DNA from: an uncultured Actinomycetes bacterium
Lineage (GTDB): Bacteria > Actinomycetota > Actinomycetes > S36-B12
Direction: 5' to 3'
NCBI GenBank assembly: GCA_903960135.1
Contig: CAJBZP010000001.1
Location: 1-41,796 of the forward strand
Length of the DNA stretch: 41,796 nt
Part shown: positions 1,023 through 15,444 of the stretch, piece by piece
How positions within the stretch are numbered: the first letter of the stretch is position 1
Layout: every line of letters begins with the position of its first letter
Translations under genes and position numbers: made by a program
The notes under the pieces: model-generated
What the model saw: only the letters and a program-made list of their open reading frames with translations
Database searches by the model: none
What the model was told of the DNA's origin: nothing

Positions 1023-1035
1023 GCAACCTCGCCCA

Positions 1036-1809
1036 CTATTTCGGTGGCAGGCGAACTGCTGCATCAAGCCGGATAACCTCACCATTTAGGTACGCATTGT
1101 CGATGATCGCGACAACAAGCTTCGCAAACTCATCAGGTCTACCCAAGCGCTTGGGAAACACCGGGGTTTTCGAAAGCTGCTCTTTCATCTCCGGTGGCGC
1201 GAATGAATAAATAGGGGTGTCGATCAATCCTGGTGCAATGGTCATCACCCGAATACCGGCCGGCGCTAGATCGCGGGAGAGCGGCAAGGTCATACCGACG
1301 AGCCCGCCCTTGCTGGCGCTATAGGCCGCCTGACCCACTTGACCGTCGAACGCTGCGACAGATGCCGTCATAATGACAACTCCGCGTTCACCATCTGCAT
1401 TTGGTTCATTCTTGGACATCGCCGCAACGCTCTGACGCACCACGTCAAATGTTCCAATGAGGTTGACGCCTATCACCTTCGCGTAGTTCGGCAATGATGC
1501 CGGCTGCCCCGCACGATCCAACGTGCGCTCGGCGATCGCGATGCCGGCGCAACTGACGCAGATATCAAGGCGGCCAAATTGCGTGACAGTGGCATCAATC
1601 GCTGCGCCGACTTCGCCTTCGTTGCTGATGTCGGTCTTGATGGATAGAACTCGTTCGCCCAACTCGGCGGCCAAAGCATTGGCCTTGTCTTCGGACATGT
1701 CGACAATGGTGACGCCCTTTGCGCCGCCCACAATCGCACGACGGACAACTGCCTCACCCAAACCCGAGGCGCCACCGGTGACGAGAACCACTGCATCTTG
1801 CAACTGCAT
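1036..1809 (-). CDS. SDR-family NAD(P)-dependent dehydrogenase, HSD10-like
   Basis: This 257-residue protein is a classical short-chain dehydrogenase. The nucleotide-binding glycine motif TGGASGLG is at residues 11-18. Asp37 after the second strand (VTIVDM) favours NAD over NADP. The active site is Asn116 (GVNLIGT), Ser150, Tyr163 and Lys167 (YSASK). The overall pattern, including SASKGGLVGMTLPLSRDL and PGLIDTPI, is closest to 3-hydroxyacyl-CoA/3-hydroxy-2-methylbutyryl-CoA dehydrogenase (HSD17B10 type), so a role in branched-chain or fatty acyl-CoA oxidation is likely but not proven. A GGAG ribosome-binding site lies 6-7 bases before the ATG. It appears monocistronic. Confidence 0.85.
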   Translation of the reverse strand: MQLQDAVVLVTGGASGLGEAVVRRAIVGGAKGVTIVDMSEDKANALAAELGERVLSIKTDISNEGEVGAAIDATVTQFGRLDICVSCAGIAIAERTLDRAGQPASLPNYAKVIGVNLIGTFDVVRQSVAAMSKNEPNADGERGVVIMTASVAAFDGQVGQAAYSASKGGLVGMTLPLSRDLAPAGIRVMTIAPGLIDTPIYSFAPPEMKEQLSKTPVFPKRLGRPDEFAKLVVAIIDNAYLNGEVIRLDAAVRLPPK

Positions 1810-1838
1810 ACCATTGCTCCTTTTGAGTGAATCCGACG

Positions 1839-2192
1839 CTATTCGTAACCGAGTTCGTGCAATCGCTCGTCATCAATACCGAAGTGGTGCGCAATCTCAT
1901 GGACGACGGTGATCCGGACTTCGTCAATGACCTCATCGAAACTGTCACACATCTCCAGCGTCGGGAGGCGAAAAATGATGATCTGGTCGGGCAACGCCCC
2001 AGCATACGAACTGTCGCGCTCGGTCAGCGGGATGCCGGTATAAAGCCCAAGCAGATCTGGCTCATCGGCGGGCGGCTCATCGGCCACCACTACCACCACA
2101 TTAGTAAGGGCCGCCGCCAACTCCTGTGGGATCAGATCCAAGGCCTGGGCCACCAAGTCTTCGAATTCGACCGCCGACACCTCAATCACCAC
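1839..2192 (-). CDS. Small zincin-like metallopeptidase family protein
   Basis: The last 20 residues contain the zinc site HEIAHHFGIDDERLHELGY, the HExxHxxGxxDxxL signature of the short actinobacterial metallopeptidase family (about 115-130 residues). The stretch DEPPADEPDLLGLY and the IPLTERDSSYAG segment are also typical of that family. I chose the GTG at 2192, giving 117 residues, because family members usually begin a few residues before an EVS.xEFEDLV helix. A TTG at 2240 with GGGGAG just upstream would add 16 residues and cannot be excluded. The physiological substrate of the family is not known to me. Confidence 0.8.
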   Translation of the reverse strand: MVIEVSAVEFEDLVAQALDLIPQELAAALTNVVVVVADEPPADEPDLLGLYTGIPLTERDSSYAGALPDQIIIFRLPTLEMCDSFDEVIDEVRITVVHEIAHHFGIDDERLHELGYE

Positions 2193-2324
2193 CCCATTAT
2201 GGGTCGGGTGCGTCCCACCAGATGGGCTGGCGCCGGCCAATGCTCCCCATTAGGACCTCGCCGGGTCCTGCCCGTATGCTTGGCCGGTCGCCAACGGCGT
2301 AACGGTCGACGGAGATGCTCGTAG

Positions 2325-2397
2325 GTCCCCATCGTCTAGTGGCCTAGGACACCGCCCTTTCACGGCGGTAACACGGGTTCGAACCCCGTTGGGGATA
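2325..2397 (+). tRNA. tRNA-Glu (TTC)
   Basis: The 73-nt cloverleaf has acceptor halves GTCCCCA and TGGGGAT (first pair a G-U wobble), an anticodon loop with TTC, and a T-arm carrying GGTTCGAACCCC. No CCA is encoded. It is first in a cluster of three tRNA genes on the plus strand. Confidence 0.93.
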
Positions 2398-2410
2398 CGC
2401 ACTAAATGTT

Positions 2411-2484
2411 GGCCCCGTAGCGCAGTTGGTTAGCGCGTCGCCCTGTCACGGCGAAGGTCGCCGGTTCGAGCCCGGTCGGGGTCG
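2411..2484 (+). tRNA. tRNA-Asp (GTC)
   Basis: The 74-nt cloverleaf has acceptor halves GGCCCCG and CGGGGTC with discriminator G, and anticodon GTC in loop CTGTCAC. It lies 13 bases after tRNA-Glu. CCA is not encoded. Confidence 0.93.
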
Positions 2485-2487
2485 CGG

Positions 2488-2512
2488 GGCCCGGAGTTCG
2501 CTCCGGGCCTTT
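2488..2512 (+). terminator. Perfect 9-bp hairpin with TTCG loop after tRNA-Asp
   Basis: GGCCCGGAG pairs exactly with CTCCGGGCC across a TTCG tetraloop and is followed by only three T residues. The very stable stem fits a rho-independent terminator or a 3'-processing structure. The short T tract and the tRNA-Phe gene just downstream make full termination uncertain. Confidence 0.55.
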
Positions 2513-2540
2513 GCAACGAACTGCTCGCCCAGTTCGTTGC
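2513..2540 (+). repeat. Perfect 11-bp inverted repeat before tRNA-Phe
   Basis: GCAACGAACTG pairs with CAGTTCGTTGC over a six-base loop, directly abutting the previous hairpin and ending four bases before tRNA-Phe. No T tract follows, so a processing or attenuation structure is more likely than a terminator. Function is inferred. Confidence 0.5.
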
Positions 2541-2544
2541 ACCA

Positions 2545-2618
2545 GGCCAGGTAGCTCAGTTGGTACGAGCGTCCGACTGAAACTCGGAAGGTCGACGGTT
2601 CGACCCCGTCCCTGGCCA
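2545..2618 (+). tRNA. tRNA-Phe (GAA)
   Basis: The 74-nt cloverleaf has acceptor GGCCAGG paired with CCTGGCC and discriminator A. The anticodon stem is TCCGA/TCGGA around loop CTGAAAC, giving anticodon GAA. The 43 bases from 2577 (anticodon loop) to 2619 are repeated exactly at 6754-6796, which marks this gene as the probable integration site of the island to its right. Confidence 0.93.
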
Positions 2619-2619
2619 C
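2577..2619 (+). repeat. Left attachment-site copy (tRNA-Phe 3' half)
   Basis: This 43-bp segment runs from the anticodon loop of tRNA-Phe to one base past the discriminator and is identical to 6754-6796 in the same orientation. Integration cores that begin at the anticodon loop are typical of tyrosine-recombinase elements that reconstitute the tRNA on insertion. It is the presumed attL, with the intact tRNA. Confidence 0.75.
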
Positions 2620-2732
2620 TTCTTACCCAGCGCATGCTAAGAAGCAACAGCAGAAACCTAAAGTGCTAAATAGATGAAGTATTGAAGGGCTAAAAAGACC
2701 TGACCGGTAAACAAGCCCTAAATCTAGTTGAA

Positions 2733-4922
2733 CTACTTCGTTCCCTGGACGACAAGCCGGATTCCGCGGAACGGGTTGATGGAGTACCCGGGAATAGTCT
2801 GCGGCGTAACTCCAACAGCGGATAGCCACATCTGGTAGGCCGTCGCGGTAACGACGCCACCGTGCCAGCGACGCCACACGATGCTTGGATCACTCAACTC
2901 CGGCGGCGGGGCGATCGTGTCGGTGATCTCTACAACGTTGCCGCCCTGATCTAGTGTTCCCCATGGCGATCGAGTGAGCGCTTGCCCCACCGAACTGACG
3001 TTCCCGCCATACGCGGGGAACAGCGGAACCGGTGTCTGTGAGCACTGAGCGGCAGTGAACGGCTGCGGACACCAGTCGGGGGCACTGCCGGGCAGCGACT
3101 CGAAAGTAGCCAGGGGCTGGGTTCCCGCGTTGGTCACGTTGCCATTGACATCGAGTTGGGCGGCCACGGGCTGCTCGCCGGTCGAGCAGCCGGACGTGTC
3201 GACCGGGCAGTTGACATATAACCCTGGGTTGGTGGGGTAGTCCCAGTAGGAGAACTTTCCACCACCATTGGGGTCGTAATACGCGGCCTTTATCCACTCG
3301 TTTTGGCTAGAGATCATGAATCCGGTCTTGGAGTTACGAGTGGCCTTGCGATTCTTCATGGTGTACATGCCAGTTTCAGTCTTAGACGAAAGGCGCACCG
3401 TGTAGGTGGTCACCTGCAGTTGCTGACCTGAGACCGTGGTGACCGGCGAAGTCTTCTTCGAGAGCACCGTGCCGTTCTGGGCCGCATTCGCAAATCGTGC
3501 GGCACGGGAGAAGTCCGCTGAGTTGTAGGGCTTATTCGCCCACGCTGAAGATGCCACGTAGTAGCGCTGACCGAGCGGAGCCTTCAGATTCCGGTTGATG
3601 GATCCGAACTTGGGCCACACGGCCGAACTCTCGGGTGCATCCCACAGGTGGTGGCGGTTACTGCCGAGCGGATCGACCGTGTTCAAGAAGGCAACCCATT
3701 GGGCAACCGTGAGTTCAGTCTCAGCGATATCGAAGTTGTAAGGAACGCTGCCGACCTCCATGCAGGATGTCGACGCAACCGCCTGCACCCCCGGATCCGG
3801 GTCGGCCTGCGTTGCAGCCTGGACCGCCGGTAGCGCTGCCTGGCAGGAAGCACTGGATTCGTAGACATCGTTGTAGAACGGGATGATCCACGCAGACGGG
3901 TTACCCGCAGATGCCACCGTGACGGTCGAGAGAGTCAAGACATTAGGTCGGATCGGCGGGCGCGGGAATATCTGCGAGACGGTGTTCGAGACGGAGTTGG
4001 CTACGAAGAGATTGCCCGCTGCATCAGAGGTGATACCGATGGGCCGGCGACCAGCCACCGCGATAACTCGAGAATCCCCACCCGGTGTCAGCTGGGAAAC
4101 CGAATCCGAGCCATCGTTAGTGACGTAGAGGTTGCCGTTCGGGTCAATGGTGATGCCGATGGGTCGCCGACCTGTCTTGCCGATGATGCTCGAGGTGCCG
4201 CCTGAGGTGATCATGGAGACATTGGCGGAGTTCCAGTTGGCCGTGAAGACACTTCCGGCAAGATCAATCGCAATCGCCTGCGGCCAGCCCCCGGTGGTGC
4301 CGAACGTCGATTGAGTCCCACCGGGAGTGATCTTCGTTACCGTGTCGGAGCCTTCGTTCGCGGTGTATACGTTGCCCGCGGGATCAAGTGCGAGGCCGAG
4401 CGGGTGCGTGCCGGTCGCGGCCAAGGTAGACGAGACTCCCGTAGCACTGATCTTCGTGACGGTGCTGTCTTGGTAGTTAGCGGTGTAGACGTTGCCTGAT
4501 GCGTCAACTTTGATCCCCATTGGCTGGTTACCGGTCGCACCGAACAACGTTGATACTCCGCCGGGGGTGATCTTGGTGACCGTATTGTCACCGCTGTTGG
4601 CCGTGTAGATGTTGCCCGTCGAATCCAGTGCGAGTGCAGTCGGGAGATGACCTGTGGTGCCTAGGATGAAGGCGTCGCCTTCAGGTGTGATCTTGGTGAC
4701 CGTATTAGCCCGCGTATCGGCCGTATACACGCCCCCGTAAGGGTCGACTACCACTGCTGAGGGGCCCTTGCCTGTCGTTGCCAGAGTGATGGTTGCCCGC
4801 GGGATGGAGGGGGTCGCCGTGGTCGCGCTAATGCGAACATCGGCAACGGCAGCGGGTGCCTGCGCAGCTATCAGGAGCGCGAAAGACACCAAGGCAGGGA
4901 CAACGATTAATTTCTTCCTCAT
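2733..4922 (-). CDS. Secreted seven-unit beta-propeller fused to SUMF1/FGE-like domain
   Basis: This 729-residue protein begins with a Sec signal peptide (MRKKLIVVPALVSFALLIAA, cleavage probably near AVA-DV). Residues about 47-326 are seven NHL/SMP-30-like units with an exact 40-residue period: a TG pair recurs at 50, 90, 130, 170, 210, 250 and 290, each followed by DxxGNxYTAN and TVTKITPGG-like segments. Seven blades would close a propeller. Residues about 340-729 resemble the formylglycine-generating enzyme/SUMF1 fold (AETELTVAQWVAFLNTV, WIKAAYYDP, DQGGNVVEITD, and a C-terminal FRGIRLVV). The C-terminal region has no obvious paired catalytic cysteines of true FGE, so a binding or structural role is more likely. 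It is the first cargo gene in the tRNA-Phe island. Confidence 0.8.
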   Translation of the reverse strand: MRKKLIVVPALVSFALLIAAQAPAAVADVRISATTATPSIPRATITLATTGKGPSAVVVDPYGGVYTADTRANTVTKITPEGDAFILGTTGHLPTALALDSTGNIYTANSGDNTVTKITPGGVSTLFGATGNQPMGIKVDASGNVYTANYQDSTVTKISATGVSSTLAATGTHPLGLALDPAGNVYTANEGSDTVTKITPGGTQSTFGTTGGWPQAIAIDLAGSVFTANWNSANVSMITSGGTSSIIGKTGRRPIGITIDPNGNLYVTNDGSDSVSQLTPGGDSRVIAVAGRRPIGITSDAAGNLFVANSVSNTVSQIFPRPPIRPNVLTLSTVTVASAGNPSAWIIPFYNDVYESSASCQAALPAVQAATQADPDPGVQAVASTSCMEVGSVPYNFDIAETELTVAQWVAFLNTVDPLGSNRHHLWDAPESSAVWPKFGSINRNLKAPLGQRYYVASSAWANKPYNSADFSRAARFANAAQNGTVLSKKTSPVTTVSGQQLQVTTYTVRLSSKTETGMYTMKNRKATRNSKTGFMISSQNEWIKAAYYDPNGGGKFSYWDYPTNPGLYVNCPVDTSGCSTGEQPVAAQLDVNGNVTNAGTQPLATFESLPGSAPDWCPQPFTAAQCSQTPVPLFPAYGGNVSSVGQALTRSPWGTLDQGGNVVEITDTIAPPPELSDPSIVWRRWHGGVVTATAYQMWLSAVGVTPQTIPGYSINPFRGIRLVVQGTK
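3945..4784 (-). repeat. Seven tandem 120-bp coding repeats (propeller blades)
   Basis: The propeller half of the secreted protein is built from seven units of exactly 40 codons without indels. Units 2 to 4 are closest to each other; the first and last are more diverged. The perfect register suggests fairly recent duplication or selection for constant blade length. Confidence 0.75.
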
Positions 4923-5019
4923 TTTCGGCAGACTACTCTCTCTAGCCAGAGCGAGTACCTGATGACCCCGTTTCCTTAATACTTGGAATGAATCTTGAGC
5001 CTGCTTTGCCAGCCCCGAA

Positions 5020-6159
5020 CTAGTGCGCGGTAACTTTCGGATTTTCTATCACGCGGTCGCCCCAGCGCGGGATTAGTCGCGCGACGACTGCACCGATTAG
5101 CGCCGCGGGCACTAACGTCCAAGTGCCCATCAGTAAGCCGAGAACAACACCAAGGATGATCACAATTGGCCACTTCATCGGTGCCGTGGCTATTAATGAA
5201 GCGATCACGCCGACAATAACTGCTGCTGGCACCGAAGGTCCGGAGTCGCCCAATGCCAGCGAGATGAGCAGGCCCACCGCGGCACCTACAAACATGGCTG
5301 GGAAGAACGGGCCGCCGCGGAATCCACAACCTAGGGATACCGCATAAGCAATGGCCTTGAAAATGATGATCGCTAGCACCGTTGACGCTGACGTCAAAGT
5401 AGACAGTCTCGTGATGAAATCTTCCCCAGAAGTGACGATGAACAAAATGCCCTCACCTGTACGGCTCTGGACGATAAGCGCACTGATGCCAACAATGACT
5501 GCGGCCGCTAACAGGATCGGCAGGTTCGGAGCGCTTCCGGTTGCGCGTTCGATCAATGCCGCAACTACACGCGCGATCGTAATGATGACCGCCACAATTA
5601 TGGCCACGACAATTGCCCAACCCAGCTGATCTACTTCGATAGCTGCAGGGGTGCTTCCTAGCTTGAGGCTGCCAGAGAGGATCGGCCCGACGAACAAAGC
5701 CAAAAGCGCACCCAAGGCTCCGAACCCAACCACCTTCTTCTGATCCTTAGCATCAATTAAGTGCATCCACTTGGCAACAAGACCACCGATCAGTGATCCA
5801 GTTGCGACAAGTGCAACTTCGGGGCCGAGCACGATGCCACCCCAAAGAGAGGCAAAAATTGCCAAGATCACGCCGAGGTACTCCTTCGGCGTCACGCTGC
5901 TTACCTTGATTCCACCAATTGGTGAATGTCCGGCATCCCCGACGAACTTCCGGATCACGAATACCAATACTGCGGAAACTAGGAGGATTCCAAATAAATA
6001 CCAGGCGGGAGTGGACGTCCAGTTCCCAGGAATTGTCTCCCAGATCGCAATAATTCCAGCGTTGAGAACCTCTAGAACAATGTAGCCGAAAAACAGACCA
6101 ATTACTGCAGCTAGCAGCATGGCCGGAAGCGGGCGGCGAGCGACGGGCGCAGTATTCAT
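5020..6159 (-). CDS. ClC-family chloride channel/transporter-like membrane protein
   Basis: This 379-residue, strongly hydrophobic protein has about ten predicted membrane helices. Two ClC signatures are visible: GGIVLGPEVALVATGSLIGG near residue 110, corresponding to the GxxxGPEGP filter region, and GCGFRGGPFFPAMFVGAAVG near residue 285, corresponding to GGxFxPxLxxGA. The family moves chloride or other anions, sometimes exchanging them for protons. The first canonical GSGIP motif is changed to AGHSPIGG, and the protein is shorter than E. coli ClcA (473 residues), so selectivity is uncertain. It sits in the tRNA-Phe island, with a 16-bp palindrome about 90 bases upstream. Confidence 0.8.
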   Translation of the reverse strand: MNTAPVARRPLPAMLLAAVIGLFFGYIVLEVLNAGIIAIWETIPGNWTSTPAWYLFGILLVSAVLVFVIRKFVGDAGHSPIGGIKVSSVTPKEYLGVILAIFASLWGGIVLGPEVALVATGSLIGGLVAKWMHLIDAKDQKKVVGFGALGALLALFVGPILSGSLKLGSTPAAIEVDQLGWAIVVAIIVAVIITIARVVAALIERATGSAPNLPILLAAAVIVGISALIVQSRTGEGILFIVTSGEDFITRLSTLTSASTVLAIIIFKAIAYAVSLGCGFRGGPFFPAMFVGAAVGLLISLALGDSGPSVPAAVIVGVIASLIATAPMKWPIVIILGVVLGLLMGTWTLVPAALIGAVVARLIPRWGDRVIENPKVTAH

Positions 6160-6248
6160 CTCCGCATCCCATCATGCGGGAGCCAGTTTCGACGGGTAGT
6201 TGGCCAACGCGGCGCGGACCAATTTCAAATCCTCCACGAAGTTGCTTC

Positions 6249-6264
6249 TGATTAGGCCTAATCA
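6249..6264. promoter_or_regulatory. 16-bp perfect palindrome upstream of the ClC gene
   Basis: TGATTAGGCCTAATCA is an uninterrupted palindrome 90 bases before the ClC start codon and 152 bases before the small zinc protein on the other strand. It could be an operator for a dimeric repressor acting on one or both genes. No regulator gene is recognisable in the island. Confidence 0.4.
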
Positions 6265-6415
6265 AATGATCAAAAACCAACGTGCGGGTCTATGCCCGCT
6301 ATGCATAAAATTATCAGGGACTATCTCATTGGTTGTCACCTAGTCGTGCATCAGACCCCAGTAATTGACCTTTTCGCTATCAATTGTGGGTCGTTTGTCG
6401 TGGGATAATTTGTGT

Positions 6416-6757
6416 GTGAATCGTTGTGAGCGTTGTCATGAACCTGCCCGGGTGCGTTGGTGTAGCAATGCTTGTAAGCGTGCTGACTATTACGAGCGGC
6501 GCACGGGTAAGAAGCGAATGGTTCACTGCCGCATGTGCGGGGATGAGATGTGGTGGTATCGGCGAGATGCTCGATATTGCTCTGGTGCGTGCAGGACGAT
6601 GGCGTACCGTGGCCGATTGATACTGAGGACCAAATCTATGTGCACGGAATGTGCACAGACTCTGCAACACCAGAGCCAACTACGAGGAACTCACAAGACA
6701 CCACCACTGACTGTGCATGACCGTAAAGACCTATTTATATGCTGCGCACCCATCTGA
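6416..6757 (+). CDS. Small protein with repeated treble-clef/zinc-finger motifs
   Basis: The predicted 113-residue product has two similar units. The first is CERCHEPARVRWCSNACKRA and the second is CRMCGDEMWWYRRDARYCSGAC followed by RTMAYRGR. Both follow C-x2-C-x9-14-C-S-x2-C-(K/R), as in short zinc-binding proteins common on mobile elements. A further CTEC lies at about residue 78. I chose the GTG at 6416 because it starts just before the first finger. A GATAATT box six bases upstream suggests a leaderless or near-leaderless transcript. The stop codon TGA (6755-6757) lies inside the right attachment repeat. Function unknown; nucleic-acid binding is the likely guess. Confidence 0.55.
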   Translation: MNRCERCHEPARVRWCSNACKRADYYERRTGKKRMVHCRMCGDEMWWYRRDARYCSGACRTMAYRGRLILRTKSMCTECAQTLQHQSQLRGTHKTPPLTVHDRKDLFICCAPI

Positions 6758-6796
6758 AACTCGGAAGGTCGACGGTTCGACCCCGTCCCTGGCCAC
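6754..6796 (+). repeat. Right attachment-site copy (displaced tRNA-Phe 3' half)
   Basis: It is identical over 43 bases to 2577-2619. The 5' half of the tRNA is absent here, so this is the displaced original 3' end, as expected for attR of an element integrated into tRNA-Phe. The distance between the copies implies an element of 4177 bp. Confidence 0.75.
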
Positions 6797-7001
6797 CACT
6801 TTTCCCGAACCAGAACTGCTGTCTTTCCGCCGAATCGAGTCCTACTCAACGGGTCATGTCACTGATTCTCCAGCCCCCATTACGCACACCCGGTGCTACC
6901 TGACTGGGTCAAGACCGAGGTAACCGGCCGCTGCATCCGCTGGCACCCCGTATTCCGTTGCCGGGAGGGTTCCAATTTTTTTCGCCGCGCCTGCCAATTC
7001 G

Positions 7002-8348
7002 CTAACGAACCGAGGCGGCCTTGGCCAAGGCGCGGGCCTCGGCGTCGGGCGTGGTGGGGAGAGGCTCCGCCAACGTCACGTATAGGAACTGCGTGGGCAC
7101 GCCGGTTGGCGTGATCTTCCCGCTCTTGGCGTCGTACGCGAATGAGAAGTCGTTGTCGTTGATGAATGCCAGAGTGTTCGAGTTCTCCACGGCCATACCC
7201 TCGACCTTCTTCGGCATCTCCGGGACCGACGAACTCTGGAATATGACCGACTTGAACGGCATCAGCGCCACGATGTTCGAATCCGTCGGCTTGAGGCTCT
7301 CCATGGACGGCGTGGTGGTCAGGCTGTCGTAGGACGTTCCAAGGATCGACTGACCCGGGCTCAGGGTCACCTGGGCTACGAGGAAGGCGTTGTCGGTCCG
7401 CTCCTGGACGAGCATGCGGCTGTCGTCGAGCGCCACCATGGCGGAGAGCTTCAGCTCAGTAGTCTTCGTCGTGCTGGGATCAACAGTGGCGGGCGCCTCG
7501 AATCGGTAGACCCACTCGCCGTCGATGGTGCCCTTCGCAAGGTCCATGCGTAGGATGCGCGTCTGCAAAGAGGCGTCGCCCGTCTTCTTGTCCGGGTTGA
7601 GCAGCGGGCTCTGCAGCCCAATGAACAGGTACTTCTCGCTGGGCGAGAGAGCCACACCCTCGAAGCCTCGGTTCGCCTTGCGAGTCAGCAAGATGCCAGG
7701 CAGCGTCGCTGAGATGGGATAGGCGGCACCGGTGCCCTTCCAGCCCTCTGGGACGATCCTCTTCTTCACCACACCGTCGGGGCCCACCTGGACGATAGAC
7801 GGCGCGTACTCATCGACGAGCCAGAAGTCGCCGTTCTTGGTGCGCACCACGCCCTCGGTGTCGAGGCCGTTCACGTTGTAGGCGATGGCCACGCCCGCCT
7901 CGTTCGTCGGGACCGAGTCATACCCGACAACGTTCGGCAGGCCGGTGGCACCGACGCCCTTGGCGGACTGCACGGCGATCTTCTGGGTGATCTGCGCCGT
8001 CGAACCGCTGACCTTGATCTTCATGATTAGGGGCGTGAACGTCGGCACTGGGAAACCGGTCCCCGCGGAGCCGTCCTTCAGCACGGTGTCGTTGTTCGGG
8101 CCGCGATCGGTCACCACCCAGTACTCGCCGGGCAGCCCGGGCGCGCGGTAGAGGTCCGAGCCGTAGCCACCGAGCAGGATGCCGAAATCGTTGCCGACCG
8201 ACCCCGGAAGCGCCGAGTTCGACGCTGCGGCAAGGCCCTCGGAGGGGAACACGTAGACGCTCACCCCGGAGGTAACCGCCATCGCGGGCACGGCGGCGGC
8301 GGCCAGGGCCGCGACGGTGAGTCCTACTATCCCGATACGAACACTCAT
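7002..8348 (-). CDS. Secreted esterase-like protein of the phytase family
   Basis: This 448-residue protein starts with a signal peptide (hydrophobic core VGLTVAALAAAAVPAMA, probable cleavage after AMA). The mature part matches the esterase-like activity of phytase family (PF13449 type). It shows YGSDLYR then YWVVTDRGPN, GLDTEGVVRTKNGDFWLVDEY, NRGFEGVALSPSEKYLFIGL, and near the end KKVEGMAVENSNTLAFINDND. These DxG/EG motifs recur in the six-bladed fold of the family and probably bind metal. It likely acts outside the cell on phosphate or carboxyl esters; the substrate is unknown. It lies just outside the right end of the island and appears monocistronic. Confidence 0.8.
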   Translation of the reverse strand: MSVRIGIVGLTVAALAAAAVPAMAVTSGVSVYVFPSEGLAAASNSALPGSVGNDFGILLGGYGSDLYRAPGLPGEYWVVTDRGPNNDTVLKDGSAGTGFPVPTFTPLIMKIKVSGSTAQITQKIAVQSAKGVGATGLPNVVGYDSVPTNEAGVAIAYNVNGLDTEGVVRTKNGDFWLVDEYAPSIVQVGPDGVVKKRIVPEGWKGTGAAYPISATLPGILLTRKANRGFEGVALSPSEKYLFIGLQSPLLNPDKKTGDASLQTRILRMDLAKGTIDGEWVYRFEAPATVDPSTTKTTELKLSAMVALDDSRMLVQERTDNAFLVAQVTLSPGQSILGTSYDSLTTTPSMESLKPTDSNIVALMPFKSVIFQSSSVPEMPKKVEGMAVENSNTLAFINDNDFSFAYDAKSGKITPTGVPTQFLYVTLAEPLPTTPDAEARALAKAASVR

Positions 8349-8429
8349 GGATCATCCTTTGCTCAGAGGTCGAATTGTCTAGCGAATCGGAAGCGCACGA
8401 ACACCGTGTGTTGACCGGGAGGCGAGCGG

Positions 8430-8654
8430 GTGATCGTCGGATGAATAGTCGGCGGCAGAGCGGACAGACGCCGGGAAGTTCTGGGCATGGATGTCGGTGA
8501 CAGTGAGGACGAGGAGTTTTGGACCCCGTTCTGTCGCGGCCTCAAAGCTCGCGGGCTGGGCGGCGTGCAGCTGGTCATCTCTGATGCCCACTACGGGCTC
8601 AAGCACGCAATCGCAGCGGCCCTAGCCACCACCCGCCTAGCCAGGCATCCCTAG
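8430..8654 (+). pseudogene. IS256-family (Mutator-type) transposase remnant
   Basis: Translated on the plus strand, this stretch reads RREVLGMDVGDSEDEEFW, then a PFCRGLKARGLGGVQ segment and LVISDAHYGLKHAIAAALA. This is the central catalytic region of IS256-type transposases, including the DAH aspartate. There is an in-frame TGA at 8442. Homology ends after AIAAALA, followed by an unrelated tail to a TAG at 8652. Only about 70 codons of the usual 400 remain and no terminal inverted repeats are visible, so it is a dead fragment marking past transposition here. Confidence 0.8.
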
Positions 8655-8677
8655 CATTTATGTGCAAGGTTGCTCTC

Positions 8678-9679
8678 ATGGCTACAACGGTGACGGAAAT
8701 CCTGAACAACGCATCCCGCAATTGTGGTCCGGGCGAGATCCTCTGGTCCATCCGAAGTTCATCAGGTGGATCCGACATCTCCTACGGGGATACCGACAGA
8801 CCTTTCTTCATTGCCAGCGCAACCAAGCTTTACGTCACGGCGATCTTGGCGCAGCTTCGCAATGAGGGCGTACTAAGTTGGGAATCACCGATCGCCCAAC
8901 TCCTTCCTGAACTTTCGATCAGTGGGCTCGTAGGCGATGCGACCGTGCGCGAGGTTATGGCCCACACGTCGGGGTTGGGCGACTACTTTGAGGCCAAGCG
9001 TGATGACGGCCTGCCCACCTTTGATCGAATCGTTTCTGGTGATTTCGGCTGGGATGTGAATGACGTCGTCACCTGGACGCACCATGTGCCATCCGGAGTT
9101 CGAGGGAAGTCCCTGTACTCGGATACGGGTTATCAATTGCTCGGAGCACTCATCGAACGGCTTGACCGACGTTCATTCGAGCAGTCCGTACGCACTCGCA
9201 TCGTCGAGCCCCTGAGTATGGGCAATACGTACGTCTTCTCTCGTAACACGATGGAACGCTTTGACTCCATCGCCCCCTTCTTCAATGGAGATGCCCAGCT
9301 TCGTATCCCGTTGGCCATGGCTTCGGTTCAGGCCGACGGTGGCATCGTAAGCACACTGAACGATGGGCATACGTTCATAGATGCTTTCTTTGCGGGTCGA
9401 CTCTTCCCGGCTCCGTTGATGACTGAGATCGCCATGGACTGGCACCGAATTTTCCGACCACTCGAATATGGCACCGGGATCATGCGGTTCAAACTCCCCC
9501 GAGTCTTCACGGGATTCAGGAGCGTTCCGGCTTTCATCGGCCATTCAGGCGCCACCGGGACCGTGATGTATCGGTGCCCGGAACGCCAGCTCACCGTTGT
9601 CGGGACGATCAATCAGGTTCGAAAGAGGAGCATGCCTTACCGATTGATGGTGCGCACGGCCCTGGCACATTCGGGCTAG
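8678..9679 (+). CDS. Serine hydrolase, class C beta-lactamase/PBP4-like family
   Basis: This 333-residue protein carries the penicillin-binding/beta-lactamase motifs: S47-A-T-K50 for SxxK with the nucleophile serine, Y147-S-D for YxN/YSD, and H289-S-G for the third (KTG-equivalent) motif. No signal peptide is evident, so it may be cytoplasmic, as for many esterase or peptidase members of this family. The ATG at 8678 is preferred over 8660 because AAGG stands 9-12 bases upstream of it. Such proteins act as D-aminopeptidases, esterases or carboxypeptidases. An antibiotic-resistance role cannot be assumed. Confidence 0.8.
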   Translation: MATTVTEILNNASRNCGPGEILWSIRSSSGGSDISYGDTDRPFFIASATKLYVTAILAQLRNEGVLSWESPIAQLLPELSISGLVGDATVREVMAHTSGLGDYFEAKRDDGLPTFDRIVSGDFGWDVNDVVTWTHHVPSGVRGKSLYSDTGYQLLGALIERLDRRSFEQSVRTRIVEPLSMGNTYVFSRNTMERFDSIAPFFNGDAQLRIPLAMASVQADGGIVSTLNDGHTFIDAFFAGRLFPAPLMTEIAMDWHRIFRPLEYGTGIMRFKLPRVFTGFRSVPAFIGHSGATGTVMYRCPERQLTVVGTINQVRKRSMPYRLMVRTALAHSG

Positions 9680-10023
9680 GTGCTTGGCCAACGAGGTGGT
9701 TGGTGTGATTCCCCTTAAGCACATTGCGCACACCTGCATTTTCTACACTGGGTGCTTGTGGACGGCAGACATTAACAGCCACTCGCCGGCCGGTACCGAC
9801 TCGCCGAATCATTGTCCGGTGCGCATGCGACCTATGAATTGCACACCGGCGTACTCACCGAAGACAGGGCCAGATACCCCTACGGCTGGGGCGCACTTGT
9901 CTCGTGCACGGGTGCCGACGATCGGCTCGGAACGGCACATGATTTTAATCCTGAGTGGTTTCCCATGATCAAGGACTAGTGCACGTCGCTCTTGGTCACG
10001 CCTAGAGCCTGTAGGATTAAATA
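9680..10023. other. Non-coding gap with an orphan coding-like scrap (9776-9979)
   Basis: No convincing intact gene lies here. On the plus strand, 9776-9979 is an open frame of 67 sense codons ending in TAG and preceded by an in-frame TAA. Its translation looks protein-like (RYPYGWGALVSCTG, then AHDFNPEWFPMIKD), but there is no good start codon or ribosome-binding site. It may be the 3' remnant of a lost gene. I do not recognise the family. Confidence 0.35.
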
Positions 10024-11511
10024 ATGCGCAAATCCCTAACATTCCTGACGGTGCCCTTGGTAGTGGCCTCATCGCTCATTTATTCACCGGCCAACGCAGC
10101 ACCTGCCACCGCTTGGGCTCCTACCGCACAGCACCTGGCATCTACCTCAACTCACATGCTGTCGCGGGACGAGGTACCGATGTCCCTAGACCTGAGTCCG
10201 GGGTGGGGTTTCACCAGCAAAAGCGGCTACCCCTTAGCCCTTAACTTGTGCACTTTTGGTGGCCAGCCAATCATGGCACCTCCGGTCACATCCATGTATC
10301 AGGTGATACTTGGAGAGTCCAAGCCAATCAGTTCCCGGACGGCGTTAACACAATCGGTTTGGGTGCACAAGAGTGAGCGCGCTGCACTAGATGCATTGGC
10401 CAATATCAGCACGGATGGCGAAAAGTGCTCAGCAAAACATGTAGCCGATGGGTTGGAAATTTCCAACGATGAGAATTATACCTTCATCTTGCAAAGCGGA
10501 TCCGCAATTTTGTCTCTCAACTACACCGTTCCTGCGGGCCGAACACTGACTGCTGAGCTAAAGCAGGAGGTTCGAAAACTTGCTAAGAACCTTTCGGTTA
10601 AGTGGGCAGCCCCGGCCGGAACCGAGAAGTTTTTTGATCCTTCCGCAAGCGGTGCCGAGCTCGCGCAGGCATTCTTCTCACTACTTCAATCGGCCAGCAC
10701 GCCGATTGAGGTACTGACCGTGACCCCAGCACAATCTCGCAAGCTGCAGAAGGTAGTGCGCCCATTTCTAGATCCCGCCTTTCAATTGGTGCGCGCAAAT
10801 GGTGAGCGCTACTTGGCAAGCAACTACATACCCTCTGACACTGGCGAGTTCGAGATCGACAACGTGGTGGCGACTGCACCCACCGCTGGCCTCATCGTTG
10901 CCAGATATCGAATCAGAACGCCCGGTGCGACGACTCCCGACAGTGGCTTGCTTCTCAGCGATGACTACAAACCACGCCTAACTACCTTTCGCTGGGATGA
11001 GTCAACGAACAGGTGGGCCTTAGTGAGTCACGCGAATTTCAACTCCCCGGTGGCAGCAATTTGCAATCAGGAGTTAATTAAGGTTGCCGCGGAGTCACCT
11101 CGAACTAGCACCAGCGACGTCGCGCTCGGCGAATCACTCGTTCGTGCATGGAGGGACACCACCTTGGGAGTTTCCGGTGTGACAGTGCGACACCCGGCGA
11201 ATCAGATCCAACTCGCCGATGGCCGTGGCTGGCCGACCACCGACGGTGCGCCCATTAAGTGGTCACCGGCGAGTGCGTATGCCGTAGAAGACATCGCTAT
11301 TACCCGCAATGGCAACCTCTTGGTGGCCTCGTATGACGCCGTCTCCTCTGGCCTAGTGCTGGAGGGCGACACGTACCGTCCGAAGGCTGCGCCGAGACTA
11401 CTGACTTACATTCAAACTGCCGAAGGTAAATGGGAGCTGCTAGCCCTCGGGAACTTCAATGTCCCGGAAGGTATCCCGCAGGGGGTGGCCTGCGTCGGAT
11501 CGAGTTCCTGA
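10024..11511 (+). CDS. Secreted protein of unknown function with duplicated C-terminal domain
   Basis: This 495-residue product has a clear signal peptide (MRKSLTFLTVPLVVASSLIY, cleavage probably at ANA-AP). Residues about 30-195 resemble periplasmic sensor-like domains of actinobacteria, with two cysteines (LNLCTF and EKCSAK) that could pair. The remainder contains two related halves: SGLLLSDDYKPRLTTFRW...WALVSHANFNSPVAAIC and SGLVLEGDTYRP...LLTYIQ...WELLALGNFNVP...VAC, each about 130 residues and reminiscent of NTF2/SnoaL-like folds. I cannot assign a function. It is flanked by remnants and appears monocistronic. Confidence 0.65.
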   Translation: MRKSLTFLTVPLVVASSLIYSPANAAPATAWAPTAQHLASTSTHMLSRDEVPMSLDLSPGWGFTSKSGYPLALNLCTFGGQPIMAPPVTSMYQVILGESKPISSRTALTQSVWVHKSERAALDALANISTDGEKCSAKHVADGLEISNDENYTFILQSGSAILSLNYTVPAGRTLTAELKQEVRKLAKNLSVKWAAPAGTEKFFDPSASGAELAQAFFSLLQSASTPIEVLTVTPAQSRKLQKVVRPFLDPAFQLVRANGERYLASNYIPSDTGEFEIDNVVATAPTAGLIVARYRIRTPGATTPDSGLLLSDDYKPRLTTFRWDESTNRWALVSHANFNSPVAAICNQELIKVAAESPRTSTSDVALGESLVRAWRDTTLGVSGVTVRHPANQIQLADGRGWPTTDGAPIKWSPASAYAVEDIAITRNGNLLVASYDAVSSGLVLEGDTYRPKAAPRLLTYIQTAEGKWELLALGNFNVPEGIPQGVACVGSSS

Positions 11512-11600
11512 AGGCGATTGGCGTGGTTAGTGCGCACTGGCACATTGCTGCTTTGTGGTGGTCGCACCACCCACGCGCTTAGCTCCTCAGTAGTGACTTT

Positions 11601-11980
11601 CTAGGCCAGTGACGTTGCAATATTCGGATACACCTGAATCACCGTCAGCCCAACCACATTCGCGATTGCCGCAAAGTACCGGTCGCAGGCCAACACGGCT
11701 GAATCCGTCCGCATCGCCATAGCCGAAATGAGGCATCCCGTTAACCCCCTGGGGATTATTCCTGAGCGACGGCAGGCACCGTAGATTTGTGCCGCTGCTG
11801 CAAAATCACTTGCCGGATCAATCCCGAGCCAATCGACACAAGGCACAAGACTGCGCACTAGGTCGTAGTCCTGATCACTTCTAGCACCGGCGAGGAGTTC
11901 CATCAGCACAGGCTGAGTAGCGGCGATTTTTGTGCCACTTGCGATGAGCTCCGCGAACTCCCGCCCACGCCCGGCGCCCT
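11601..11980 (-). pseudogene. Frameshifted VapC-like PIN-domain toxin (main part)
   Basis: The downstream frame encodes RGREFAELIASGTKIAATQP, then VLMELLAGARSDQDYDLVR and GLTGCLISAMAMRTDSAVL, then ACDRYFAAIA, the body of a VapC ribonuclease. The PIN N-terminus (VILADSAVWVDLLR, with the first catalytic Asp) lies upstream in another frame, so a one-base shift falls between about 11962 and 11975. The third acidic position, usually TDCLIA in this family, reads TGCLIS, so an active-site Asp appears to be lost. Both changes indicate an inactive toxin. Confidence 0.7.
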
Positions 11981-12181
11981 AAGGAGATCTACCCAGACAG
12001 CTGAGTCAGCGAGGATCACGAGGGCCGGTGTCGGACAGAAGCTCAAAGTCGGAGATCTCACCGAACAGGCGGCGGCCCGCTCGCGGCTCATCGGCTGCCC
12101 CGCCAGATGACGAAGGGCATAGTCGACCGCTTCCCGCTTAGTCGAGAGTCGAAAGTGCCCCACATGTTGCTGCCCATACAC
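11962..12181 (-). pseudogene. Frameshifted VapB-like antitoxin plus VapC N-terminus
   Basis: The frame from 12181 reads GHFRLSTKREAVDYALRHL then AGQPMSRERAA, the conserved VapB core. A sequence that looks like its natural C-terminus (RLFGEISDFELLSDTGPRDP, stop TGA) is found one frame over, consistent with loss of a single base near 12065-12080. That TGA overlaps the VapC start region GTGATCCTCGCTGACTC, the normal arrangement for a vapBC operon. The original N-terminal strand of VapB is also poorly preserved. Confidence 0.65.
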
Positions 12182-12393
12182 CTCATTGGTCGATAGAACC
12201 GGACACCCTCAATTCCCTCTCACCCCAAGGCATTGCGGCCACCGGCGGCATCCGGGGAAGTTCATCCGTTCTTCACCTGGCTGCCATCGCTAGATAAACC
12301 TGCGGAAACCCAGGAATCAGATCATCTAATTACTTCCCCACCAAGCTGTCCGCGCAGTAGCGACAGATCGACGACTATCGATGGGGAGACATC

Positions 12394-12537
12394 ATGATTA
12401 ATGCAGATCTGGTTTGCCCCCTATGTCATACCGTTGACTTTGAGGTGACCCGAAACGAGACCCACGGATTCATCGTGTTGTGCAATGAATGCGGGTATGC
12501 AATCGGCGCAACGCTCCAGCATCTTCTCGCTGGCTAG
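12394..12537 (+). CDS. 47-residue zinc-ribbon protein
   Basis: A short gene with a strong Shine-Dalgarno (GGGGAG six bases before ATG) encodes MINADLVCPLCHTVDFEV, a 13-residue linker and FIVLCNECGYAIGATLQHLL. Two CxxC knuckles 21 residues apart form a minimal zinc ribbon. Its function is unknown; small ribbons of this type often bind nucleic acid or a protein partner. The TAG stop is followed in the same frame by 77 further open codons with protein-like composition, so it may once have been the head of a longer protein. Confidence 0.55.
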   Translation: MINADLVCPLCHTVDFEVTRNETHGFIVLCNECGYAIGATLQHLLAG

Positions 12538-12771
12538 GACAACCTGCCGCTGACAAAGCACCCATCGGCGGGTGCGGATCACTTCAGTTGGGGGCTGGAA
12601 GTCTCGCTACTTATGCGCGAGGGGATCGCACTTTACAACTCGTACGACAATGTTAATGAACAGGATCCATTTGATGGTCACGAAGGGGAAGACTGGGGAA
12701 CTACTCCACATCAGGTCTTCTTGACTTACGACCTTCCTGCGATCGGCAATGAATTCGTTCGGAGCTCCTGA
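12538..12771 (+). pseudogene. Open frame continuing in register after the zinc-ribbon stop
   Basis: Directly after TAG the same frame runs to TGA at 12769-12771. The translation is rich in aromatic and acidic residues (SWGLEVSLLMREGIALYNSY, then DPFDGHEGEDWGTTPHQVFL and TYDLPAIGNEF). The only standard start codon is an ATG at 12613 with no clear ribosome-binding site. It may be a decayed gene, the second half of a protein split by a nonsense mutation, or a chance frame. I do not recognise the family. Confidence 0.35.
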
Positions 12772-12798
12772 GGCTTTGTAGCGCCGCGGAAATTACCG

Positions 12799-12825
12799 CT
12801 GATCCAGTTCCCAGACTCTAACGCC
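12799..12825 (+). repeat. 27-bp direct repeat, copy 1 (duplicated glucokinase 3' end)
   Basis: It is identical to 14656-14682. On the minus strand it encodes GVRVWELDQ in the glucokinase frame, but here it overlaps the last codon and stop of the FAD oxidase gene instead. Confidence 0.8.
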
Positions 12826-14371
12826 GTCGCCTTCCCTTAAGGCGGTCCAACAGGGGCGAGCCAAAAACTCCGCGGTTATCCAAACCGTCCCAGATTTCCA
12901 CCATCGGCTGGATCTCCTCCCGTACCCAGGAAAGCACTGATGCTTCGGTCCAAGGGCCATCAAGTGAGACGGCCCACGCCTTTGACCACTCCGGGCGCAG
13001 GCTGCCTGGGAAGCGCTGCCACAACCAGGCCTCGAACTCGGCGTAGAACTGCCACGCCATCGGCATGCTGGGTGTGGTCACCACGTCGAACCAGATGACA
13101 CGCTCGGAACCGTTGATGGGCAGCCCTGGGGAGAGCATCGCCGGCACGGCACCCGGCATCCCGAGTGCCTCCTCCCGATCGACATCGGTGACGCGCATCT
13201 CAAGGCAGCTGTTAATCGGGTCGTGGCCGGCATGCGCGTACTCGTGCAACATGCGGTCGAACTGCTCGGCCAGTGCATGGATCGCCTCTTGCACTCCCTC
13301 GCGCCGCACATGGACGGCGTACGCGAGGCTCACGACCCGCAGGGTGTCGTGTTGCACATACAGCAGCATGTTGCCCGAGGTGCCATGCCATTGCTGATCC
13401 GGCGGGGAGATGTGGCGCATCTCGGCCAGCACCGCCCGCTCGACGAGCGGCGTGAGCCACGGCAGGAGCGACAGCGACTTGGTGAAGAGCCCGGTGAAGG
13501 CCTCAGGCAAGTCTGGGGAGAGCCGTACCGTCAGCGGCTCGGTGACGCGTGGGCCCTCGATATAGGGCTCCTCAGTGAAGTGCTGTACGACGGGTGTCTC
13601 AGTGAAGGGGAACCACAGTGCCTGAACGCGGCCATGCTCTTCAACGAGCGCTTGCATGCTGCCTGCTTGAGCCGTCGGCCCATAGACCACCTGCCAGTTC
13701 GGGTACTCGACACGTCGGCCTACGAAGCAGTTCGGCACAACGCGCATGGTGACCGACAGGAGGTAGGCCGCACCCAGATGCACCAGCAGCGCGGCGGCCG
13801 CCGGCTCGTCGCGTCGAAATTCGCGGATGGCGTACGAGTCGCCGTCCGACACGATCGCCCGGAACCCGAGGACAAGATTGCTCATCGTGCCGTAGAGATC
13901 GCTCTGATCGGCGCGCTGGCGAACGCCTGCGCCATGAGCTCCGATCGCCAGCATCCCGCCGAGGCTGACATCGGGAACACCCGGGAAGTCCGGCCATGAC
14001 CACCCTGGCGCATCACTGGCGCCGCGGTTGTCAATGTTCTCCAACGCCTTAAGCGCCTCGGCAAGCGTGGTCCCCGCGCGGAACGTTGCAGCAGGCAGCG
14101 GCGCGTATGTGAAGTCCAAAAGGCCCGTCATCTGCGACTGGTCGATCGCGATGACGTTCTTCGCGTCCTCGAATGCGAGTGGCGACCACGTGTGAAAGGC
14201 CCCTACGGGCCTAACCCGATATCCGTGCTGGGCAGCCCAGCGCACGATGTCGAGAGCTTCATCGTCGGTGGTAGGCGTTGCCGTGAGAACGTCTTCGACG
14301 CTGATCATCTGAGACCAGTTCTCGTAGGTACGACGTTGCAGATCGTCGATATCCTTCACGCTGTCCCCCAC
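12818..14371 (-). CDS. FAD-dependent oxidase, class II cholesterol-oxidase-like
   Basis: This 517-residue protein has an N-terminal FAD_binding_4 (PCMH) domain, about residues 20-200. RVRPVGAFHTWSPL contains a histidine placed where related enzymes attach FAD covalently, followed by LDFTYAPLPAATFRAGTTLA and SLGGMLAIGAHGAGVRQ. The C-terminal half (WFPFTETPVVQHF, then EMRHISPPDQQWHGTSG and LEMRVTDVDRE) resembles the substrate-binding domain of Brevibacterium-type cholesterol oxidase and sugar oxidases. It probably oxidises an alcohol group with O2; the substrate is not predictable. No signal peptide is seen, unlike secreted cholesterol oxidases. The start is GTG. The stop codon lies inside copy 1 of a 27-bp repeat, and the gene is bracketed by both copies. 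Confidence 0.8.
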   Translation of the reverse strand: MGDSVKDIDDLQRRTYENWSQMISVEDVLTATPTTDDEALDIVRWAAQHGYRVRPVGAFHTWSPLAFEDAKNVIAIDQSQMTGLLDFTYAPLPAATFRAGTTLAEALKALENIDNRGASDAPGWSWPDFPGVPDVSLGGMLAIGAHGAGVRQRADQSDLYGTMSNLVLGFRAIVSDGDSYAIREFRRDEPAAAALLVHLGAAYLLSVTMRVVPNCFVGRRVEYPNWQVVYGPTAQAGSMQALVEEHGRVQALWFPFTETPVVQHFTEEPYIEGPRVTEPLTVRLSPDLPEAFTGLFTKSLSLLPWLTPLVERAVLAEMRHISPPDQQWHGTSGNMLLYVQHDTLRVVSLAYAVHVRREGVQEAIHALAEQFDRMLHEYAHAGHDPINSCLEMRVTDVDREEALGMPGAVPAMLSPGLPINGSERVIWFDVVTTPSMPMAWQFYAEFEAWLWQRFPGSLRPEWSKAWAVSLDGPWTEASVLSWVREEIQPMVEIWDGLDNRGVFGSPLLDRLKGRRRR

Positions 14372-14649
14372 ATGATTGAAAGTACTGGTTTGCTTGGTAA
14401 CGGTAGGCCGCTGATTTGGCGGCGCGGAAGTCGCGACACCGTGTACCCCTTATTGGACGCCGGCAAGATTGAGTGGGCGACCAACCCGATAGGAAAAATC
14501 ATGTGTCGTGGGACCGACAGCGCAGCGCCAACAAACTCCCGCGCTAAGCCCCAGCCCTCGCCTGGCACAGTCGTCCCAGCAATGAACCGGCGTCACGAAA
14601 TACCTGACATTTGTCGACCCCTAACCGTTTGCTGAACATGCGCGATCCC
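14372..14649. other. Intergenic stretch between glucokinase and FAD oxidase genes
   Basis: No convincing gene is present. A 70-codon minus-strand frame (14356-14568) overlaps the FAD oxidase start and has no family resemblance I can see. The segment lies within the block enclosed by the 27-bp repeats, so it probably arrived with the oxidase gene and carries its promoter. Confidence 0.5.
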
Positions 14650-15438
14650 TCACCCCTGATCCAGTTCCCAGACTCTAACGCCACCGATGATGCCTGCGGA
14701 GTTCGAGATGATCGTTGCCTTCGGACCAAATTGTGAATCCTTCAGCAACCGCGCGTTGCCGCCACCGATATAGATGTGATCGAACCAGAGCATCTCGGCG
14801 AAGATCTCGACGCAGGTTTGAACACGCTCGGTCCACTCGTCGTTCCCGATGTTCTTGAGTTCGACATTGCCCAAGGCTTTGTCAATGCTCAACTTCCTCG
14901 AAAATCTGCCGTGTGATAACTCCAGGTGCGGTAGCAGTTTTGATTCGTAGAAAAGAGCGGTGCCCACACCGGTCCCAAGGGTCATCACGAACTCAAGTCC
15001 ACCACCCTTGACAACCGCGCAGCCCTGCATGTCAGCGTCATTTACCACCTTCGTCGGCACCTCGAATGTCTTGGCAAGGGTGCCACCTAAGTCAAAGCCC
15101 GCCCATGCGGCAGTCAACTCCGGATCCGGATCACCGTCATATTCGCGGCGCGATAGTGACGGAACTTCGACCACATGGCCGCCCCGGACCAAGCCAGGGA
15201 AGCCAACCGAGGCGCGCTGCACATCACGCATCCCGCTGACTACTTGCTCAATTGTCGCGACCAAGGTGGCGGGCGGGCACGGGTAAGGCGTATCGATGCG
15301 AACGCGATCCATCACCATCTCGCCCTGCGGATTTAGCACAGACGCTTTGACACCCGAGCCACCAATATCAACGGCCAAGGTGCGGACATGGGCCGGCCAC
15401 GTGGTGGTGGTTTGGTTATTCATTAAGTCCCATTTCAC
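14650..15438 (-). CDS. ppgK: ROK-family polyphosphate glucokinase
   Basis: This 262-residue protein phosphorylates glucose using polyphosphate and/or ATP, by analogy with actinobacterial PPGK. Visible motifs are the N-terminal phosphate loop LAVDIGGSGVKASVL, GFPGLV, the catalytic aspartate in VVNDADMQG, the second phosphate motif TLGTGVGTALF, and LPHLELSHG for sugar binding. The zinc-binding CxCGxxGC cluster of other ROK kinases is absent, as is usual in this subgroup. GTG 15438 or ATG 15423 may be the start. It lies six bases after the sulfatase-fold gene, so it probably ends that operon. Its last codons are duplicated at 12799-12825. Confidence 0.82.
   Translation of the reverse strand: MKWDLMNNQTTTTWPAHVRTLAVDIGGSGVKASVLNPQGEMVMDRVRIDTPYPCPPATLVATIEQVVSGMRDVQRASVGFPGLVRGGHVVEVPSLSRREYDGDPDPELTAAWAGFDLGGTLAKTFEVPTKVVNDADMQGCAVVKGGGLEFVMTLGTGVGTALFYESKLLPHLELSHGRFSRKLSIDKALGNVELKNIGNDEWTERVQTCVEIFAEMLWFDHIYIGGGNARLLKDSQFGPKATIISNSAGIIGGVRVWELDQG
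14656..14682 (+). repeat. 27-bp direct repeat, copy 2 (native glucokinase 3' end)
   Basis: This copy encodes the natural C-terminus of the glucokinase (GVRVWELDQ, one Gly codon, then TGA). It is exactly repeated 1857 bp to the left, beyond the FAD oxidase gene. Confidence 0.8.
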
Positions 15439-15444
15439 GTGCCC

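Follow-up and report, generated by a model that had tools for sequence, protein, structure and literature searches.

The window analysed here, a stretch of 41,796 nucleotides from an uncultured Actinomycetes bacterium, carries an intact tRNA-Phe gene followed by a 4.2-kb island, which is the subject of this work. The last 43 bases of the tRNA gene, from the anticodon loop onward, are repeated without a mismatch at the far end of the island, as a displaced 3' half (Table 1). These two copies of the attachment-site (att) core are the only matches in the whole 2.32-Mb genome, with no third copy, and a scan of 50 related contigs gave 86 cores at no more than 9 mismatches against none in 20 shuffles, which excludes a chance origin of the cores. 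The exact repeat and the completion of a whole tRNA by its left copy had both been reported in a preliminary description made from the sequence alone, and both were confirmed, the latter by ARAGORN.

Three open reading frames (ORFs) lie between the cores. For the first, described earlier as a propeller/SUMF protein, Pfam supports the propeller but finds no FGE-sulfatase/SUMF domain, even when the C-terminal half alone is searched at E ≤ 1; the second is a ClC-like transporter, as described, and the third would encode a small finger-like protein. Pfam analysis of the three ORFs revealed no integration or transfer genes, in line with the earlier statement that no integrase is recognisable in the module, and the PF00589 matches of the genome lie on other contigs.

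Table 1. Features of the tRNA-Phe locus and related genes in other genomes (positions are those of the window unless a genome, contig or locus is named).
Feature	Position	Strand	Basis or remark
tRNA-Phe (GAA), intact	2545..2619	+	ARAGORN; 3' 43 bases form the left att core
Left core (attL side), 43 bp	2577..2619	+	exact direct repeat
Left end of element	2620..2698	+	same family as the Lcl_C-cassette left ends of G006 and G007; more weakly G009
Probable fusion point around shared GACCGG	2699..2712	+	Lcl_C-type left end passes into propeller cargo
Secreted NHL/Vgb-type beta-propeller protein, 729 aa	2733..4922	-	Pfam Vgb_lyase 3e-24, NHL 2e-18
ClC-type transporter, 379 aa	5020..6159	-	Pfam Voltage_CLC 5e-12
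Cys-rich finger-like ORF	6416..6757	+	ORF list; no Pfam family at cut-off
Class-1 right arm, ~120 bp of conserved DNA before the distal core	6633..6753	+	profile and alignments; presumed recombinase-binding arm
Right core (attR side), displaced 3' half of tRNA-Phe	6754..6796	+	exact direct repeat
Rest of variable region 3' of tRNA-Phe	6797..14649		phytase-like gene (7002-8348) and others; window vs G009 alignment
IntPhe family members	G083:C42:21550-23034, G094:C10:807-2222, G091:C5:59044-60495		tRNA-Phe-linked
Carriers of the motif W..SW..W...G.GG..C.R	L033:149-1036(-), L033:5792-7021(-), L039:13263-14516(+), L116:517-1443(+), L119:3004-3939(+), L039:11616-12239(+)

The same site without the island is found in the congeneric genome G009, which has a single core with both flanks joined exactly: window positions 1034–2619 match positions 6635–8220 of L042 at 94.8% identity, and 6754–8465 match 8178–9887 at 97.1%. 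Another relative, G006, holds the cargo of the window (2699–6799) at 98.7% over 4.1 kb, ending at a core; there it is the third module of an array and lies between two cores. The preliminary description had proposed an insertion of the tyrosine-recombinase type and suggested a search of related genomes for an empty site; G009 provides this site and, together with the G006 copy, bears out the proposed layout.

In the two regions around the xer genes that were sampled for each genome pair, the window and G006 are 74.5–77.1% identical, against 98.7% for the cargo, indicating that the unit was transferred recently. Similarly, the flanks near tRNA-Phe in the window and G009 (95–97%) are more alike than the sampled xer regions of this pair (75.6–78.7%), and thus the tRNA-Phe neighbourhood itself was exchanged en bloc. 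On the 5' side of tRNA-Phe (window 1034–2619), the flank is 83–95% identical among congeners, compared with 74–79% for the sampled xer regions (G006, G009).

From the alignment with G009 it also follows that the variable region extends well beyond the island, which is only its unit nearest to the tRNA. Beyond the 97.1% block, collinearity is lost after position 8465, with the exception of one short block (9332–9488, 91%), and is sustained again from about 14650 (14652–16338, 73.5%). The phytase-like gene stands immediately 3' of the single core in G009, and the content 3' of tRNA-Phe differs among the window, G001, G004, G005, G007 and G009.

We searched 59 relatives with tRNA-Phe and 85 genomes of the family with the right end of the island; all genomes are drafts, with arrays split across contigs. 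Spaced partial copies of tRNA-Phe with the same 43-bp extent occur at least twice in 31 of the 63 genomes with a match (counted from the table of matches), and eight cores were seen in the array of G099:C18. The 36 complete core-to-core modules range from 64 bp to 38 kb, with a median of 2.0 kb. An identical search of the same 85 genomes with the neighbouring tRNA-Asp revealed no spaced series of 3'-half copies.

When genomes were compared block by block with all cores masked, many pairs had homologous blocks ending 0–2 bp from a core in both genomes. For example, two units are bounded by cores at both ends, a YefM-YoeB cassette of 707 bp, with a 664-bp block shared at 92.2% by G020 and G074 (genera g12 and g10), and a single-ORF Lcl_C unit of about 1.2 kb in G006 and G007; two other blocks end at the core on the right, one of 3.8 kb at 99.4% in G074 and G099 (genera g10 and g2) and one of 1.2 kb at 91% in G023 and G099. 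Seen across the relatives, the window island is one of many small, exchangeable cassettes piled at tRNA-Phe, most of them without a moving enzyme of their own.

A separate observation concerns G008 (L041:2838-6019), where an intact tRNA-Met and an incomplete repeat of its 3' half enclose two cores of the tRNA-Phe type; this is an island nested in another tRNA gene.

The DNA in front of the distal core is conserved independently of the cargo. This right arm, which defines class 1, was aligned at 14 sites with unrelated cargo to its left: besides the window, it precedes cores in G006 (three), G007, G001, G089, G090, G086, G023 (two) and G100 (three). A sequence profile of the arm detected 18 sites in 10 of the 166 genomes of the order, all in one family (five genera) and none outside it; four of the 18 that had no good core were read by eye, and in these the core is degenerate or absent. 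Class-1 modules measure 1.1–4.4 kb and carry differing cargo in several genera, and all keep the arm. That unrelated cargo shares an arm suggests reuse of the arm rather than decay of one parent. The two further module classes discussed below, 2 and 3, are defined by pairwise similarity only.

The finger-like ORF (113–130 aa) partly coincides with this arm: its last ~40 codons overlie it, and its stop codon is inside the core. Only the window and G006 have the full frame open, G006 being the only genome in which the protein is conserved, and the DNA of the ~40-codon 3' segment is conserved in other genomes without a reading frame; hence the segment is conserved as DNA, and the earlier view of a multi-finger protein as ordinary cargo is not supported. 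A conserved element gene, for example one for a directionality factor, was also considered and rejected, since the frame is broken in the other class-1 ends while the DNA is kept.

The left end has a more complex history. Window positions 2577–2707 are 93% identical to G006, 89.5% to the second G007 core and 77% to G009. Homology to the left end of G006 module 2 stops at 2707, homology to the G006 cargo starts at 2699, and the propeller cargo in G006 has a left end different from that of the window. The window unit thus seems to combine two adjacent cassettes that a deletion near GACCGG has joined, with both the event and its direction inferred from these alignments. Within arrays, junctions of the predicted attP type (right arm, core, left arm) occur at core 36 of G006 and at the second core of G007.

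The PF00589 matches of the genome comprise a XerC/XerD-like pair and a broken phage integrase remnant, with no other intact protein of this family; the remnant, on contig C112, belongs to another integrase family and was rejected as a helper. Serine recombinases (PF07508) are absent from the 10 genomes of the genus. The preliminary description had also suggested looking for a separate integrase-bearing element with the same core, and such elements do exist in relatives for two classes, with none for the class-1 arm. In class 2, the 38-kb module 2 of G099 encodes a 410-aa integrase (Phage_integrase) and an AlpA/excisionase-like protein, and its 127-bp right arm is shared with an integrase-less 1.9-kb neighbour and with modules of G074, G008 and G001. 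In class 3, the enzyme is IntPhe, a divergent tyrosine recombinase of ~490 aa that is below the Pfam cut-off and was found with a home-made profile on the arrays and a protein search. Sequences at least 80% identical to the G083 IntPhe occur at nine places, eight of them sharing a contig with a tRNA-Phe core; these eight genes read towards the tRNA at 1–6 kb from the core, the distances being taken from the coordinates of separate searches. The IntPhe elements share a left arm of ~150 bp with integrase-less modules of G107, and a C-terminal remnant of IntPhe is found inside the G009 locus. A 7-mer, CAGCGCA, common to the class-1 left end and the IntPhe left ends, has a differing spacing and is too weak to assign a recombinase.

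Overall, these data lead us to read the window feature as an integrase-less mobile cassette, integrated in tRNA-Phe in a site-specific manner, that would have been moved in trans by a tyrosine recombinase and is now partly rearranged, a reading to which we assign a probability of roughly 80%. A recombinase supplied in trans would join a circular cassette (right arm, 43-bp core, left arm) to the 3' half of tRNA-Phe. The cassette would bring its own tRNA 3' half, so that the tRNA would stay whole and the displaced copy would mark the far end. Because every insertion would leave a usable core, further cassettes could stack at tRNA-Phe, the arrays would grow and shrink, and the window would contain one such unit. 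With this model one can account for the repeat and the empty site as well as for the arrays, their arms and the recent transfer; the circular intermediate and the foreign recombinase are inferred from sequence, and the window copy may still be mobile.

Several points weigh against this interpretation. Neither the movement nor an excised circle was seen. No class-1 module has an intact integrase, and the class-1 arm is matched by no recombinase among the 166 genomes searched; apart from a fragment of 147 codons at the end of G100:C142, 2.6 kb from a class-1 core, class-1 contigs carry no integrase. The arm–core pattern has no match among 2.9 million viral contigs. Finally, the draft state of the assemblies leaves the arrays fragmented, and misbinning could inflate a few of the between-genus matches. 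The G100:C142 integrase was rejected as a class-1 helper, being a fragment only and having a doubtful link to class 1.

The apparent rearrangement of the left end makes a stripped, immobile remnant the main rival: the element would have entered tRNA-Phe with its own integrase and deleted it, and the cargo would now be fixed. Decayed integrases in the same genome and in neighbouring loci are consistent with this, and the decay of integrative and conjugative elements (ICEs) or integrative and mobilizable elements (IMEs) into cis-mobilizable elements (CIMEs) is a described route (PMC5704250). On the other hand, class-1 modules with varied cargo in several genera speak against it, none having an intact integrase and all having preserved the arm, and the high identity of the cargo to G006 compared with the sampled chromosome (74–77%) means that the unit, at least as far as G006 shares it, moved recently in the form it now has. 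We regard such a remnant as possible, at rather less than even odds.

It is unlikely that the unit spreads by homologous recombination at flanks and cores held in common, or by the uptake of pieces of arrays, and that site-specific events belong only to the distant past. The block exchange of the neighbourhood between the window and G009 (flanks at 95–97% against 76–79% elsewhere) speaks for such a process, and the 43-bp cores and the arms could act as short homologies. However, 43 bp is short for efficient RecA-mediated exchange, and site-specific recombination fits better with the many between-genus alignments that stop a few bp from masked cores. A phage satellite packaged by a helper phage would be small, integrase-less and located at a tRNA 3' end, as the island is, but the three ORFs contain no phage-hijacking, packaging or replication gene (Pfam, PADLOC), and with the viral contigs also negative for the arm–core match we consider this very improbable. 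Slightly less probable still is movement by host XerC/XerD, as in integrative mobile elements exploiting Xer: the XerC/XerD-like pair is the only intact PF00589 candidate in the genome and G006 has only two PF00589 matches, but about 5% of the draft genome may be missing, dedicated tyrosine recombinases adjoin the same core in relatives, and the core is presumably of the kind that integrases commonly use in tRNA anticodon arms rather than a dif-like site. All three processes fit less well than a cassette moved in trans.

Integrase-less islands are common and are usually dismissed as remnants. Here, the empty site, the recent transfer between divergent species and the arm common to unrelated cargo suggest that such units can be live and moved by the enzyme of another element. 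Since the substrates are defined (three arm classes, one core) and candidate enzymes are available, the question "trans-mobilised or dead" becomes directly testable in lake bacteria. A bolder and, in our opinion, doubtful extension would make tRNA-Phe in this freshwater family a dedicated platform for cassette exchange, where IntPhe and similar enzymes would insert and excise, in trans, many integrase-less cassettes of less than 5 kb whose arm–core–arm sites are compatible; such a system would resemble an integron, but it would be based on a tRNA attachment site and use conserved DNA arms instead of attC hairpins.

Comparable arrays anchored at tRNA or transfer-messenger RNA (tmRNA) genes have been published, and therefore the window unit belongs to a known kind; new here are the separation of the modules by arm class and the candidate enzymes. 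One close likeness is to additive flexible genomic islands (fGIs), described in Alteromonas (PMC5217437), in 'Ca. Actinomarinales' (fGI1, with tRNAs as targets of gene cassettes, tell-tale repeats and transfer between genera; PMC7771536) and in Methylophilaceae (fGI-2, with tRNA-Lys repeats and units of 330 bp–42 kb; PMC10872708). As in these islands, unit sizes run from hundreds of bp to tens of kb, insertions recur at a single site, marked by direct repeats of the tRNA 3' end (36 modules), and content varies at the same location between relatives; here, in addition, arm classes are resolved, cassettes are matched core to core between genera, and an empty site and arm-matched integrase elements are found. 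The ssrA-specific islands of Dehalococcoides, 15 of 31 without an integration module and proposed to be cis-mobilizable (PMC3146451), are likewise tandem and bounded by RNA-gene 3'-end repeats, but they use a tmRNA target and a serine recombinase instead of tRNA-Phe and tyrosine recombinases; many of the units here measure only 0.7–4 kb.

CIMEs, as known from ICESt1-related elements and IME tandems, keep att sites without integration or transfer genes and undergo tandem accretion (PMC5704250). The window module also retains attL and attR, with an exact core at both ends, a conserved right arm and a conserved left end, and has no such genes inside; no parent ICE or IME is recognised for class 1, with no integrase-bearing class-1 parent in 166 genomes and an integrase fragment near one class-1 end. 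Integron cassettes resemble the arrays in their short units of one or a few genes, including toxin–antitoxin genes, and in a recombinase presumed to act in trans. They differ in that no attI platform was seen here, no IntI-specific search being made, and in that the site consists of a linear tRNA core flanked by arms; the core-linked enzymes match the general Phage_integrase family, and the one core site tested shows no attC-like single-strand folding (z = −1.33, 21 of 200 shuffles folding as well). Tycheposons are also tRNA-anchored cargo elements of planktonic bacteria and, as described in PMC10872708, carry a tyrosine recombinase; the window module has none beside the tRNA. Nor do the window ORFs include the integrase and phage-hijacking genes of phage satellites.

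Among the cargo of the arrays, otherwise unrelated secreted proteins (propellers, Lcl_C proteins and unknowns) share the motif W..SW..W...G.GG..C.R, e.g. GWTPSWAQWVDDGHGGEVCVR, mostly near the C terminus, and no Pfam family was seen for it. Upstream of the tRNAs, the window has a DUF6036 nucleotidyltransferase gene (489–1022), whose relatives lie on array modules of G023, G103 and G099:C11 and end exactly or nearly at a core. In the first module of G103 (L109:1-3291), an AbiEi/AbiEii-like pair and a DUF6036 gene are joined with no core between them; in other genomes these are separate cassettes, and the G103 module looks like two cassettes.

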